A stretch of 64,000 nucleotides of DNA from Salipaludibacillus neizhouensis (lineage in GTDB: Bacteria > Bacillota > Bacilli > Bacillales > Salisediminibacteriaceae): positions 2,588,930 through 2,652,929 of the forward strand of contig NZ_KZ614146.1 in NCBI RefSeq assembly GCF_002886185.1, read 5' to 3'. Under the pieces are notes generated by a model. That model was not told the DNA's origin, did no database searches, and saw only the letters and a list, made by a program, of their open reading frames with translations. Positions within the stretch are counted from its first letter, which is position 1, and every line of letters begins with the position of its first letter. Both the position numbers and the translations under genes were made by a program. Positions 3,530-11,872 of this stretch are shown here, one piece after another.

Positions 3530-4134
3530 GCCAAAAACCTTTTGCTGACAATATCCACTGGCATGATTCTGTTGTAACAAAACAGGACCGTTCACAGCTT
3601 AATGGGCATAAAAGTTGTGTATTGTGGTTTACTGGACTTTCTGGATCTGGAAAGTCCACGCTCGCCAATGCGGTAAATCAACGATTATTCGAGAAAAAAC
3701 TAAGTAGTTATGTGTTAGATGGGGACAATGTTCGCCACGGATTGAATGGAGACCTCGGTTTCAGCCCTGAAGATCGTCAAGAAAACATTCGCCGCATAGG
3801 AGAAGTTTCCAAGTTATTTGTCGATAATGGTACCATCGTATTAACTGCGTTCGTATCGCCGTACCGAGATGATCGAATGATCGCAAGAAAATTAGTTGCC
3901 AAGGAAGAATTTATCGAAGTGTATGTGAAATGTAACTTAGAGGAATGTGAAAACCGTGACCCTAAGGGATTGTACAAAAAAGCCAGAAATGGAGAAATTC
4001 CAGAATTCACTGGTATCAGCGCTCCCTATGAAGAACCGGAAAGTCCTGAACTTGTCATTTCTTCCGATGAAACTTCTATCGATACCTCAGTAGAACAAAT
4101 AATAACGTTTCTAGAGAAAAAGCAAATTATTTAA
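3526..4134 (+). CDS. cysC: Adenylyl-sulfate kinase
   Basis: Phosphorylates APS to PAPS using ATP. The Walker A loop GLSGSGKST is at residues 37-45, followed by the APS-kinase signature DGDNVRHGL and the lid segment [16 protein letters not shown]. At 202 residues it matches stand-alone CysC. It overlaps sat by four bases (ATGA), which suggests translational coupling. As CysH has the 4Fe-4S cysteines and may use APS directly, PAPS made here may feed the same reductase or other sulfotransfer needs. Confidence 0.95.
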
Positions 4135-4158
4135 TCATGAAATCGAGGAGGAAACAGT

Positions 4159-4947
4159 GTGTACACAAGCAAAGGTGAAGTTTACTTGGTTGGCGCAGGT
4201 CCTGGTGACCCAAAGCTGTTGACTCTTCGAGGTGCAGAACTGTTGCAAGAAGCTGATGTTATTGTCTATGACCGTTTAGTGAATAAAGAAATTTTAAAGC
4301 ACGGTAAAACCGGTGTCGAATTAATTTTGTGTGGGAAGTCTCCTACAGGTCCTTCTACTAAGCAAGAGGAGATTAATGAGATCCTTGTTTTCCATGGCTT
4401 GCAAGGCAAAAAAGTGGTGCGATTAAAAGGTGGAGATCCGGCAATTTTCGGCAGAGTTAGTGAAGAAGCCATTGCGTGCCGAGAAAACGGCATCCACTTT
4501 GAAATTGTCCCTGGAATTACTTCCGGGATTGCAGCACCAGCCTATGCGGGTATCCCTCTGACTCATCGTGAATTGAGCACCTCGTTTGCCATTGTCACTG
4601 GTCATCAACGGAAAAATGGGAAAACGGACGAAATTAATTGGAAAAGCTTAGCGACAAGCGTAGACACGCTTGTTTTCTATATGGGAGTCAGTCAAATTAA
4701 AGTCATTCAAGACAATTTACTGTTCCATGGGCTCTCTCCAACCACACCTGTTGCACTCGTGCGCTGGGGAACTTATCCAACTCAAGAGACTTTAACAGGG
4801 GAACTTCTGACGATTGCAGAAAAAGTAAACAAACGGAAATTTAAATCCCCTGCCATCATTATCGTAGGAGAAGTTGTAAGGCTTCGTGAGAAATTAGCGT
4901 GGTTTGAAGAAAAATTAGATCACTCTTCTCATTTTAATGAATCCTGA
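4159..4947 (+). CDS. sumT: Uroporphyrinogen-III C-methyltransferase (siroheme branch)
   Basis: SAM-dependent enzyme that methylates uroporphyrinogen III to precorrin-2, the first step to siroheme, the cofactor of sulfite reductase. The tetrapyrrole-methylase motifs are clear: VGAGPGDPKLLTLRG near residues 11-25, GGDPAIFGR near 95, and PGITSGIAAPAYAGIPLTHR in the middle. It corresponds to YlnD of the B. subtilis cys operon. The start is GTG 4159, preceded by GAGGAGG about seven bases upstream. Length (262) is that of a stand-alone enzyme, without the CysG dehydrogenase/chelatase part, which is encoded by the next two genes. Confidence 0.93.
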   Translation: MYTSKGEVYLVGAGPGDPKLLTLRGAELLQEADVIVYDRLVNKEILKHGKTGVELILCGKSPTGPSTKQEEINEILVFHGLQGKKVVRLKGGDPAIFGRVSEEAIACRENGIHFEIVPGITSGIAAPAYAGIPLTHRELSTSFAIVTGHQRKNGKTDEINWKSLATSVDTLVFYMGVSQIKVIQDNLLFHGLSPTTPVALVRWGTYPTQETLTGELLTIAEKVNKRKFKSPAIIIVGEVVRLREKLAWFEEKLDHSSHFNES

Positions 4948-9111: not shown

Positions 9112-10110
9112 TTAACCGAATAAACTAGTGAATGTCTGTACTCCCGCAATTCCATCAACAATTATACCTGCATCTCTTTGAAAGCTTCTTACAGCAGCCT
9201 CGGTTAAAGGACCGAATATGCCATCAATATACTCTGGGGAGTGTCCCCTGATGTGAAGAATTGCCTGAAGAATCCATGTAATATTCCCTTCAGCCCCTCT
9301 CTGCACGTTTACAATGCCACCTCGAGTCTGCGGACCCCAAATACCATCTACAGCTAAACCTGCGTTAAATTGCGTATTTAGTTCTGTTTGCAATCCTAAA
9401 ATAAGCGCTTGTTTAGTCTCAGGTCCAAAAATATTATCAACGGCAATATTTAACCCATACCGACTATTCAAAGTAGATTGTATAGTTGATATCGTCCCAG
9501 TCGGCGTTTGTGGTGTTGGGTCAGAGATCGGTTCTGGTTCTGGTTCTGGTTGTGCGGGGGCTCCCGAATTACCTTGTTCCCATCCAAACACCTCAGCTAG
9601 CCCATTCGTATGACCTTGAGCAACACGCTCTAAAAATTGGTTACTTTTTAATTTTGCTGCATCTTCTGCCCGATCAATAAAAAGGTTCTCTGTCAAAATT
9701 GCAGGCATCTGTGAGGTCCTTAATACTGCGAAATTTGCTCGTTTTTTCCCACGATCAATTCCACCAATTTGAGTCATAATTGCCGCGTGAATAATATCTT
9801 GATAGGATTGAGTCACTGACGATACATTTCCATTCCAAATAAATGATTCAAAACCAGTTTGCCCACTGGCATTTACATGTATCGAAACAAATATATCAGC
9901 TCCCCAGGTGTTCGCGATTGTTGTCCGCTCGCTTAGAGAGAGAAAAATATCTGATTCTCTACTTAATTGAACCTCCGCATCACTATAGACCGTCAACTGT
10001 CTCTGTATCCGTTTGGCAATATCTAAAACAAGATTTTTTTCTAATAAGCCGTTTCCTGTTGCACCAGTATCATTACCTCCGTGTCCTGGATCAAGAAATA
10101 TTTTAGCCAT
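9112..10110 (-). CDS. N-acetylmuramoyl-L-alanine amidase with C-terminal peptidoglycan-binding repeats
   Basis: A zinc amidase (Amidase_3) cleaving the bond between muramic acid and the stem peptide. Zinc ligands are His10 (DPGHGG), Glu24 and His78 (SIHVNA); the catalytic glutamate is Glu141 in AILTENLF. A Pro/Glu-rich linker follows near residue 180, then at least two PG_binding_1-like repeats (DNIFGPETKQA, DGIWGPQTRGG, DGIFGPLTEAAVRSFQ). There is no signal peptide: the amidase fold starts at residue 2. Such enzymes are phage endolysins or mother-cell lysis enzymes like CwlC. No phage genes are nearby, so a sporulation role is the better guess. Confidence 0.9.
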   Translation of the reverse strand: MAKIFLDPGHGGNDTGATGNGLLEKNLVLDIAKRIQRQLTVYSDAEVQLSRESDIFLSLSERTTIANTWGADIFVSIHVNASGQTGFESFIWNGNVSSVTQSYQDIIHAAIMTQIGGIDRGKKRANFAVLRTSQMPAILTENLFIDRAEDAAKLKSNQFLERVAQGHTNGLAEVFGWEQGNSGAPAQPEPEPEPISDPTPQTPTGTISTIQSTLNSRYGLNIAVDNIFGPETKQALILGLQTELNTQFNAGLAVDGIWGPQTRGGIVNVQRGAEGNITWILQAILHIRGHSPEYIDGIFGPLTEAAVRSFQRDAGIIVDGIAGVQTFTSLFG

Positions 10111-10236
10111 TTTTTAGCCTCCTTTATCTAGCAGGTTATTCAAGTTTATTGAGAGGAAGATAAAATTAAGTTAACTGCCTCCTATCTGTATCTCATGCTA
10201 TTATTCGATATCCGGCACGGCATGTACCTGTATGAA

Positions 10237-10276
10237 TTCAAAAAAGACTTTTCTCTAATTATATTAGGGAAAAGTC
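10237..10276 (-). terminator. Terminator after the HesB-like gene
   Basis: On the minus strand GACTTTTC...GAAAAGTC with an inner CTAAT/ATTAG pairing is followed by TTTTTTG. It is 28 nt after the stop of the HesB-like gene and shows that this small gene has its own transcript end. Confidence 0.8.
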
Positions 10277-10303
10277 TCATTTGTGCTAAATTCCTTATCT
10301 TAT

Positions 10304-10588
10304 TTAACAACAGTCACTTTCATTACCTGTAATTGTTAATCCTGCACCTTCATCGGTTTCTTGATACTCTAGCGTCATATTTTCAGTTTGGCTATGAATC
10401 GACTTATCAATCGCCACTTTAATGCCATTTATTTCTTCTACTACATCATTTTCTGTTGCCTCATCCAGAGCCAATCCCAATTGGGGACCACCTCAACCTA
10501 TTCCGGCAACAAATACTTTAATGCTCGATACGTCATGTTCTTTTAAAGTTTTTTCAATAAATACCTTTGCTTCATTTGTAATTTTCAT
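10304..10588 (-). CDS. HesB/IscA-like protein with in-frame TGA: candidate selenoprotein or pseudogene
   Basis: A 95-codon frame (94 residues plus TAA) starting at ATG 10588 behind GAGGTGG. It has one internal TGA at 10493-10495, codon 32, in the context VFVAGIG-TGA-GGPQLGLALDE. The rest is intact to the end: NDVVEEINGIKVAIDK, MTLEYQETDEGAGLTI and a C-terminal Cys93-Cys94. As I recall the family, the residue between GxG and GGP is Cys, or selenocysteine in known HesB-like selenoproteins. These A-type carriers bind iron-sulfur clusters or iron through such cysteines. A hairpin fitting the bacterial SECIS model follows. Alternatives are a Cys-to-stop mutation in a decaying region, or a truncated 31-residue peptide. 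Decoding needs selA, selB, selC and selD, none of which is in the window. Confidence 0.65.
10456..10474 (-). promoter_or_regulatory. Candidate bacterial SECIS hairpin
   Basis: Starting 19 nt after the TGA, the minus strand reads TTG-G-CTC, loop TGGAT, GAG-G-CAA. That gives six pairs with one G-G mismatch and a five-base loop with guanines at loop positions 2 and 3, 27-28 nt from the TGA. As I recall the model, bacterial SECIS elements have a small stem, a 3-14 nt loop with G in its first two positions, and a distance of 16-37 nt. All three hold. Short hairpins do occur by chance. Confidence 0.5.
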
Positions 10589-10665
10589 ATTTCCACCTCA
10601 CAATTGATTGTACATTAATCACATAATATCAATCTTCCAGGTAAAAAACAAGAAAACAATCCTGT

Positions 10666-11059
10666 CTAGTCTCCCAAACCGTTTACGAAAATATTTGCGT
10701 TATGGCGCATCATATCTAGGTATGTTTCCGCATTGGAACCTTCTCCGCCCACTGCATCCGTATATACCTCCCCTGCAATTTCTACTCCAGCGTTCTCTGC
10801 TACTGTTTCCATATATTTGGTCCACCGTTGTCTCAACAAAAACAGCTGGAACATTTTCGTCTTGAATGATATCTATGACTCGATTGATTTGTCCTGTAGT
10901 ACCCTCTTCATGAGAATTGATTTCCCAAATGCCTTCCGTTTGTAAACCATAAGCTTCACCAAAATATTTGAAAGCATTCTCACTCATAATAATTGTACGT
11001 TTATCTTCTGGAAGATTCTCTACTTCTGCTTCGATCCACCCTATAATTAATACAGTTAT
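10666..11059 (-). pseudogene. Frameshifted remnant of a TroA/ZnuA-type metal-binding lipoprotein
   Basis: The C-terminal half of a periplasmic-type zinc/manganese ABC-transporter binding protein, in two reading frames. The upstream part reads LPEDKRTIIMSENAFKYFGE ... VPAVFVETTVD. After a frameshift around 10818-10826 the other frame continues KYMETVAENAGVEIAGEVYT, then AETYLDMMRHNANIFVNGL to a stop at 10666. The N-terminal half with signal peptide and first metal ligands is absent, and sequence before about 11059 belongs to the terminator of the PRC-barrel gene. No permease or ATPase partner is adjacent. It is a dead remnant. Confidence 0.85.
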
Positions 11060-11066
11060 ATCCACA

Positions 11067-11102
11067 AAAAAATTCCAGCTACATCTTCTGTAGCTGGAAT
11101 AC
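11067..11102 (-). terminator. Terminator after the PRC-barrel gene
   Basis: A perfect stem ATTCCAGCTAC / GTAGCTGGAAT around a six-base loop is followed on the minus strand by seven T residues. It ends the PRC-barrel transcript; the metal-binding remnant lies beyond it. Confidence 0.88.
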
Positions 11103-11134
11103 ATTAAAATTAAAACTTAACTTCAAATAGTAAA

Positions 11135-11872
11135 CTACGTACTTTTTTGATAGTGCATCCATAATTCTTGCTCTTTATTATCTGACAACTCCATATCTTT
11201 TAAATACTCCGGAGCTTCTTCAATTTGCTCACGTGTAACACTAATCGACATTTGTGATACCGACCATTCTACATCATCTATCCATTTAGTAGATATTAAT
11301 ACTTTTTTTCCGCCAGGAAGCCACTTTTTCGTATCAACGATAAAATATTTGATTTCAAATGTTTTTTCATCGATAAGAAAATTATCGACCTTTCCAAACA
11401 CATCATTTTTCACTGATAAATTATACCCCATGACATTCTTGGCCTTATGGACAGAGTAATTCTCATTCTGAGCCAGATCCGCTTCGGCCGAAACGTCTGG
11501 ACTGCCTAAATCCGTATCCGTCACGGTAGAAAGGCCCCACACTCCATTACCAACCCAGTAAGGACTTAATCGATAATAGTTATTAAATTCTTCTTCATAT
11601 CTTCTCGAAACAGGCTCATCTCCCGGATCAGGTCATTTCTCGGTTTCTTCTTTAGATATATTCACCCTAATGACTTCCTCTTTATGATCAATTTTAGCGA
11701 TTGATAGCGGCGATACAAACCTTTTTTCCGATAAAAATGTTACTCCCGTTTTTACAACCAAATAGCGAATTGTCCAATCATCCTCGTCAAAATAACAGTC
11801 TGATACCTCACCAATTTCACCATCCGAACCAAAAACGGTGTAAGATGTTAGCCAGTCGTAATGTAAATACAT
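11135..11872 (-). pseudogene. Two-domain PRC-barrel protein interrupted by an in-frame TGA
   Basis: A single 246-codon frame from ATG 11872 encodes two PRC-barrel-like domains. Residues 1-79 contain GSDGEIGEVSDCYFDEDDW and IRYLVVKTGVTFLSEKRFVS; residues after 110 contain GYNLSVKNDVFGKVDNFLI and YFIVDTKKWLPGGKKVLIST. Codon 80 (11633-11635) is TGA, but the frame continues PDPGDEPVSRRYEEEFNNYY. The TGA falls where relatives have a small polar residue (SPD-like context) rather than cysteine, so a one-base nonsense mutation is likelier than recoding. Two truncated proteins (79 and at most 135 residues) could be made. Function of these PRC proteins is not established. Confidence 0.8.

Follow-up and report, generated by a model that had tools for sequence, protein, structure and literature searches.

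A HesB-like gene with an in-frame UGA in Salipaludibacillus neizhouensis probably encodes a selenoprotein

Introduction

HesB-like selenoproteins are already well known. In Methanococcus maripaludis, a member of the family was recognised through mutagenesis and 75Se labelling, in a paper whose accessible part describes the function of the family as not clear (PMC11097638), and the accessible parts of two surveys report 90 HesB-like selenoproteins in 86 organisms (2016; PMC5029168) and Bacillales with three selenoproteins of three families (2006; PMC1794560). A HesB-like gene, ORF7, has also been reported from the ars1 operon of Bacillus sp. CDB3, along with arsD, arsA and a gene for a dual-specificity phosphatase (PMC4562236 and PMC5481582, accessible in part). 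The HesB/IscA domain itself is shared with the iron-sulfur carriers IscA, ErpA and SufA.

Here we describe a gene of Salipaludibacillus neizhouensis that very probably joins the family of HesB-like selenoproteins. It lies in a stretch of 64,000 nucleotides, hereafter the window, in which an initial annotation had noticed a HesB-like frame with one TGA and proposed a selenoprotein. With the HesB-like selenoproteins represented by the NCBI models TIGR01911 (UxGP) and NF038090 (IscA_HesB_Se) it has in common the HesB/IscA domain, a UGA at a conserved Cys position, the motif U-G-G-P and, in a weak form, a SECIS-like hairpin behind the UGA. To the known family we add a clade that falls under the curated cut-offs of these models (9 of 9 copies scanned), a covarying hairpin, co-occurrence with sel genes inside one genus, and evidence from neighbouring genes.

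Results

A HesB-like frame interrupted by a single TGA

The gene and its signals are arranged in the window as follows.

10304..10588, minus strand: probable selenoprotein gene of the hesB-like kind, 94 codons and a TAA, assigned by domain and NCBI model matches
10493..10495, minus strand: in-frame TGA, codon 32, putative selenocysteine in the motif U-G-G-P, placed by position alignment with relatives
10593..10599, minus strand: ribosome site GAGGTGG, read directly from the sequence
10456..10474, minus strand: SECIS-like apical hairpin, stem UUGGCUC/GAGGCAA, loop UGGAU at 10463-10467
10245..10277, minus strand: hairpin 3' of the hesB-like gene, probable intrinsic terminator, 15 pairs, scored on the plus strand

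The frame starts with an ATG (10588-10586) and ends with a TAA (10306-10304). The TGA at codon 32 stands in the context AGIG-U-GGPQLGLALDE, the frame is open from there to the TAA, and the last two residues of the product are Cys93-Cys94. Read by eye on the minus strand, the terminator candidate contains one mismatch and has a run of T behind it. The single-TGA HesB-like frame of the initial annotation is therefore confirmed as an observation: the sequence shows the 94-residue minus-strand frame with exactly one stop, its ribosome site and Cys-Cys end, and a hairpin after the gene.

With Cys put in place of Sec, the window protein matches PF01521 at 27.9 bits (cut-off 26.3). Its nearest NCBI models are the two HesB-like selenoprotein models, NF038090 (62.3 bits, E 4e-17) and TIGR01911 (61.1 bits, E 1e-16), although neither curated cut-off is reached (85 and 66.35, respectively). 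Eight other copies of the Sec type were scanned and gave a similar picture, NF038090 matching eight and TIGR01911 seven of them, all below cut-off. Scores against the equivalog models of the iron-sulfur carriers lie far below their cut-offs (IscA 18.5 against 150.6 bits, ErpA 31.3 against 117, SufA 20.3 against 136.2). A profile search also matched the PDB chains 2apn, 1nwb and 1s98; the single alignment displayed, that to 2apn, places the Sec column over a cysteine of the chain. A search of the organism's own genome with PF01521 reported three other genes, and the window gene was not among these.

The genome carries selA, selB, selC and selD

The initial annotation had named the absence of the selenocysteine machinery as an observation that would refute a selenoprotein. 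In a search of the own genome, which spans 5.5 Mb and is 99.95% complete, selA, selB, selC and selD were all found. selA scored 534 bits (cut-off 267.9), selB 370 bits (cut-off 242.25), selD 412 bits and the tRNA-Sec 59.2 bits (gathering threshold 47), the latter also being called tRNA-SeC with anticodon tca by ARAGORN. Genes for SelA, SelD, SelB and the tRNA-Sec are clustered within 6 kb, at C1:1981953-1987860. The selD gene is itself interrupted by one TGA (AG-U-GCK), so the genome holds at least two UGA-containing selenoprotein genes.

C1:1984348-1985277, own genome: selD (L051), UGA-containing selenoprotein gene

Formate dehydrogenase was considered as a further selenoprotein and rejected, since none of the three Fdh-alpha matches in the own genome has an internal stop. 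A second Sec-type HesB copy was not found in this genome.

TGA copies in relatives occur together with sel genes

We searched 120 genomes, including the own genome, with the window protein, selA and selB. Among the matches listed, at least 56 HesB-like rows, the window's included, contain an internal stop, and in 56 of 56 this stop is a single TGA, with no TAA or TAG; these copies are spread over at least 51 of the 120 genomes, the own one among them. selA is above cut-off in 71 genomes and selB, among the matches listed, in 72, so that the machinery is not rare in the relatives searched, contrary to what the initial annotation's remark on the scarcity of selenoproteins in Bacillaceae would suggest. 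Within the 51 genomes with a TGA copy, selB is found in 50 and selA in 49, the exceptions being G033 (80% complete; selB without selA) and G034 (76% complete; neither gene). In the whole sample, 50 genomes combine a TGA copy with selA or selB, one has a TGA copy with neither, 22 carry sel genes but no listed TGA copy and 47 have neither (Fisher p 5e-15, kinship ignored). The 22 genomes with sel genes and no listed TGA copy indicate that the machinery does not depend on the HesB-like gene.

Sequences were compared for 55 of the 56 listed TGA copies (all but that of G034) and for the 15 best-scoring stop-free copies. Every one of the 55 has one TGA and no other stop in frame, and the motif position is occupied by TGA in 55/55 TGA copies and by Cys in 15/15 stop-free copies. 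The UGA thus sits at a conserved Cys position within the UxGP motif, which is named in Table 1 of PMC13188914 (accessible in part). Two expectations of the initial annotation are borne out by this comparison, namely a Cys in homologues at the Sec position and a gene free of extra stops in relatives. A tree of the 70 copies (93 columns) needs a minimum of 6 Sec/Cys changes, of which the well-supported branches require only 1. A scan of genome contigs matched four distant loci, from Firmicutes bacterium M10-2, Caloramator, Fusibacter and Erysipelotrichaceae.

These relatives contradict the reading of the window copy as a plain pseudogene, that is, a Cys-type HesB gene hit by an ordinary nonsense mutation. 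One in-frame stop and the nonsense break of another gene, some 1.1 kb upstream, would agree with such a mutation, but an internal stop that is always one TGA, and the association of TGA copies with sel genes and with a hairpin missing in the 15 Cys copies, argue strongly the other way, and we consider it highly improbable. We think just as little of the idea that the UGA is read by a suppressor or by near-cognate read-through instead of tRNA-Sec, or that the TGA is a sequencing error. Nothing specific favours it, and it is opposed by the recurrence of one-TGA copies in so many genomes in step with sel genes, as well as by the tRNA-Sec of the genome itself.

A SECIS-like hairpin is conserved downstream of the UGA

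Across the 55 Sec copies, CUGGA occurs at a fixed place, with the loop beginning 25 nt after the UGA. The stem is fully paired (7/7) in 41 copies, with 6 pairs in 13 and 5 pairs in 1, and its sequences vary yet pair (GGCUC/GAGCC, GGCGC/GCGCC, GUCUC/GAGAC, UAUCUC/GAGAUA). In 53 distinct Sec rows 96% of the cells are paired, compared to 40% in the 15 Cys rows. Sliding the partners lowered the pairing of the Sec set to 28-51%, and the pairing of the Cys copies is close to that of their slid controls (26-42%). Shuffled partners in the Sec set, with kinship left in, averaged 85% and reached 96% in 0 of 2000 trials; most of the stem pairing is therefore a matter of column make-up. Furthermore, the Leu codon at UGA+9, which lies in the loop, is CTG in 55/55 Sec copies and in 2/15 Cys copies, against a background of 71 CTG among 357 other Leu codons in the Sec-copy genes.

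The accessible part of PMC13188914 gives limits for bacterial SECIS elements: a loop length of 3-9 nt, a G early in the loop, a distance of 16-37 nt to the UGA, a stem of 4-16 pairs and an energy of at most -7.5 kcal/mol. The limits on stem, G and energy are together satisfied by 45 of the 55 Sec copies and by 0 of the 15 Cys copies. In the window hairpin, the loop UGGAU starts 25 nt after the UGA, and both loop and spacing are within the limits; 6 of 7 pairs can form, with one G-G mismatch, and the stem of 3+3 pairs and the energy of -6.3 kcal/mol fall short of the limits of 4 pairs and -7.5 kcal/mol. As free RNA, the window sequence is predicted to favour another fold, the SECIS-like hairpin having a pair probability of 0.04, and a 61-base region of the window did not fold better than shuffles (z -0.59, 49/200). 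The competing fold probably draws on bases hidden beneath a ribosome that stands at the UGA. An Rfam scan of 9800-11200 gave no match up to E 1.

The hesB-like gene persists amid decayed neighbours

Three neighbouring features are needed to describe the gene order.

9112-10110, minus strand: Amidase_3 gene with peptidoglycan-binding domains, between hesB and dapF
10666..11104, minus strand: remnant of a gene for an ABC substrate-binding lipoprotein of the Mn/Zn type, matched only over a piece corresponding to about residues 181-273 of 306
11135-11872, minus strand: PRC-barrel gene, interrupted by a TGA (11633-11635)

In G002, G003, G005 and G007 the order is PRC-barrel, lipoprotein, hesB and dapF homologues, with dapF about 0.2-1.2 kb behind hesB and no amidase homologue between the two. 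The window departs from this order in that the lipoprotein gene is a relic whose end lies in a different frame (by eye), a TGA breaks the PRC-barrel gene and the amidase gene stands between hesB and dapF; hesB is intact. The PRC-barrel gene was tried as a second selenoprotein and rejected, because 14 relatives have neither a stop nor a Cys at the place (translations by eye). Its TGA looks like an ordinary nonsense break and as such has little bearing on the HesB gene. The initial annotation had counted the decayed neighbour and the second TGA-broken gene towards a pseudogene; it is right that two upstream neighbours are decayed, but the PRC-barrel break is of another kind than the TGA of hesB.

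Of the 26 main family copies compared, the own one among them, 17 are directly preceded by a near full-length lipoprotein gene, which was seen as an open frame in 7 of these 17 loci; in the window this gene is a relic, and in 8 loci none stands directly upstream. Two of the upstream lipoproteins were scanned and came nearest to EfaA, SloC and MntC (Mn/Fe or metal types), below cut-offs. In three members of the same genus, G001, G004 and G006, selA and selB are not above cut-off. Their genomes keep the PRC-barrel, lipoprotein and dapF homologues, with a gap of 1.8-2.5 kb between lipoprotein and dapF, and tblastn (word size 2, E < 0.05) gave no HesB match on the 9-kb stretches concerned. Within this genus, then, hesB tracks the Sec machinery rather than the neighbouring gene.

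The part behind the UGA is the better conserved one

The comparison of dN/dS on the two sides of the UGA, as proposed in the initial annotation, gave 0.32/1.84 before it (codons 2-31) and 0.15/1.45 behind it (codons 33-93) for the window versus G007; over all 14 comparisons, dS could not be estimated in 7 before and 3 after the UGA. Differences from G007 at codon positions 1, 2 and 3 number 21, 8 and 46. Had the UGA become a plain stop, the part behind it should have changed more than the part in front, and the opposite is seen: 14 of 30 residues are identical to G007 before the UGA and 46 of 62 after. In a neutral control, random placement gave a mean of 36.4 identical residues and a maximum of 46, the latter equalling the observed value. 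In 1341 of 5000 random placements of the 44 changes observed downstream, the frame remained open, which makes openness alone weak evidence.

Compared to its genus mates, the window copy has changed faster, with an identity of 0.64-0.67 to their copies versus 0.81-0.89 among these; for the neighbour dapF, the corresponding values are 0.66-0.68 and 0.72-0.73. The first 31 codons changed most, with 14/30 residues identical to G007 versus 23-27/30 among G003, G005 and G007, and after the UGA the values are 45-47/62 for the window versus 51-55/62 among the three. Such a rate, together with the weak, mismatched hairpin and the decayed lipoprotein and broken PRC-barrel genes just upstream, is what one would expect if the family were truly one of selenoproteins and the window copy were in early decay, its hairpin weakening and the gene being lost like its two upstream neighbours. 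A frame intact through the C-terminal Cys-Cys, the distribution of differences over codon positions and the better preservation of the part after the UGA argue against early decay, and the hairpin of G075, with a mismatch in the same place as that of the window, nevertheless reaches -8.5 kcal/mol and a pair probability of 0.96. We therefore regard early decay as unlikely. The pseudogene concern of the initial annotation has nonetheless not fully gone, given the fast-changing window copy and its weak hairpin.

Homologues lie beside ars genes

ArsA-like genes are found within about 0.8 kb of 12 of the 15 Cys HesB copies, and ArsA-, ArsD- or phosphatase-like genes near at least 9 of the 55 Sec copies, many of whose flanks extend only about 1.3 kb. 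One ArsD, one ArsA and one phosphatase neighbour were checked against Pfam. The Sec-type loci near ArsA-, ArsD- or dual-specificity-phosphatase-like genes (L074, L075, L078, L100, L102, L106, L108, L109 and L118) are possible selenoprotein members of ars operons. One of them, L078 (G002, 3937-4212, plus strand), is a diverged TGA copy on a very long branch, lacking the terminal Cys pair and with an ArsA-like gene nearby. Among the matches listed from open-licence PMC papers, we found no report that places a Sec-type HesB gene within an ars operon.

Several of these paralogue loci resemble the setting of CDB3 ORF7, whereas the window gene lies outside any ars operon; the likeness to ORF7 is one of gene context. 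Examined flanks of the main family copies contain ars genes in 0 of 26 cases. The own genome has an arsR-arsC-arsD-arsA-like cluster (L137, C1:578178-579929 and flanks, names by eye), and its examined flanks gave no HesB match.

Homologues beside arsD and arsA, and a clade behind a Mn/Zn-type lipoprotein gene, suggest by association the handling of soft metals or metalloids. The metalloid idea is weakened because it rests on the neighbours of paralogues and not on those of the main copies. Metal or metalloid handling, as opposed to plain redox or Fe-S work, is accordingly a job that we ascribe to the window protein with considerable reserve.

Discussion

Our analysis supports the selenoprotein reading of the initial annotation. 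The hesB-like gene very probably encodes a functional selenoprotein, with UGA codon 32 decoded as selenocysteine by SelA, SelB, tRNA-Sec and SelD of its own genome under the guidance of the hairpin, the insertion step itself being what we infer from the sequence. On the molecular level, the machinery would insert selenocysteine at the UGA, and the hairpin with its UGGAU loop, 25 nt downstream, would guide this insertion. By analogy with IscA, Sec32 and the C-terminal Cys93-Cys94 would together provide a single ligand site of the IscA fold. Judged from its context, the protein would most likely serve to bind and hand on a soft metal, a metalloid or an Fe-S unit.

For the family as a whole, we put forward a speculative hypothesis, in our view rather unlikely to hold in full: HesB-like selenoproteins might be metal or metalloid carriers and not general Fe-S proteins. 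Selenocysteine and the terminal Cys pair would make up a three-ligand soft-metal site, the partners would be ArsA and ArsD in one branch and a Mn/Zn-type lipoprotein in the branch of the window gene, and Sec and Cys forms would be swapped as sel genes come and go.

As the clade falls below the NCBI cut-offs in 9 of 9 copies scanned, genes of this kind may be mistaken for broken ones or overlooked. The clade also represents a natural experiment, with Sec copies, Cys copies and gene-less species of one genus, and the neighbours of its members provide a testable functional idea for the HesB-like family.
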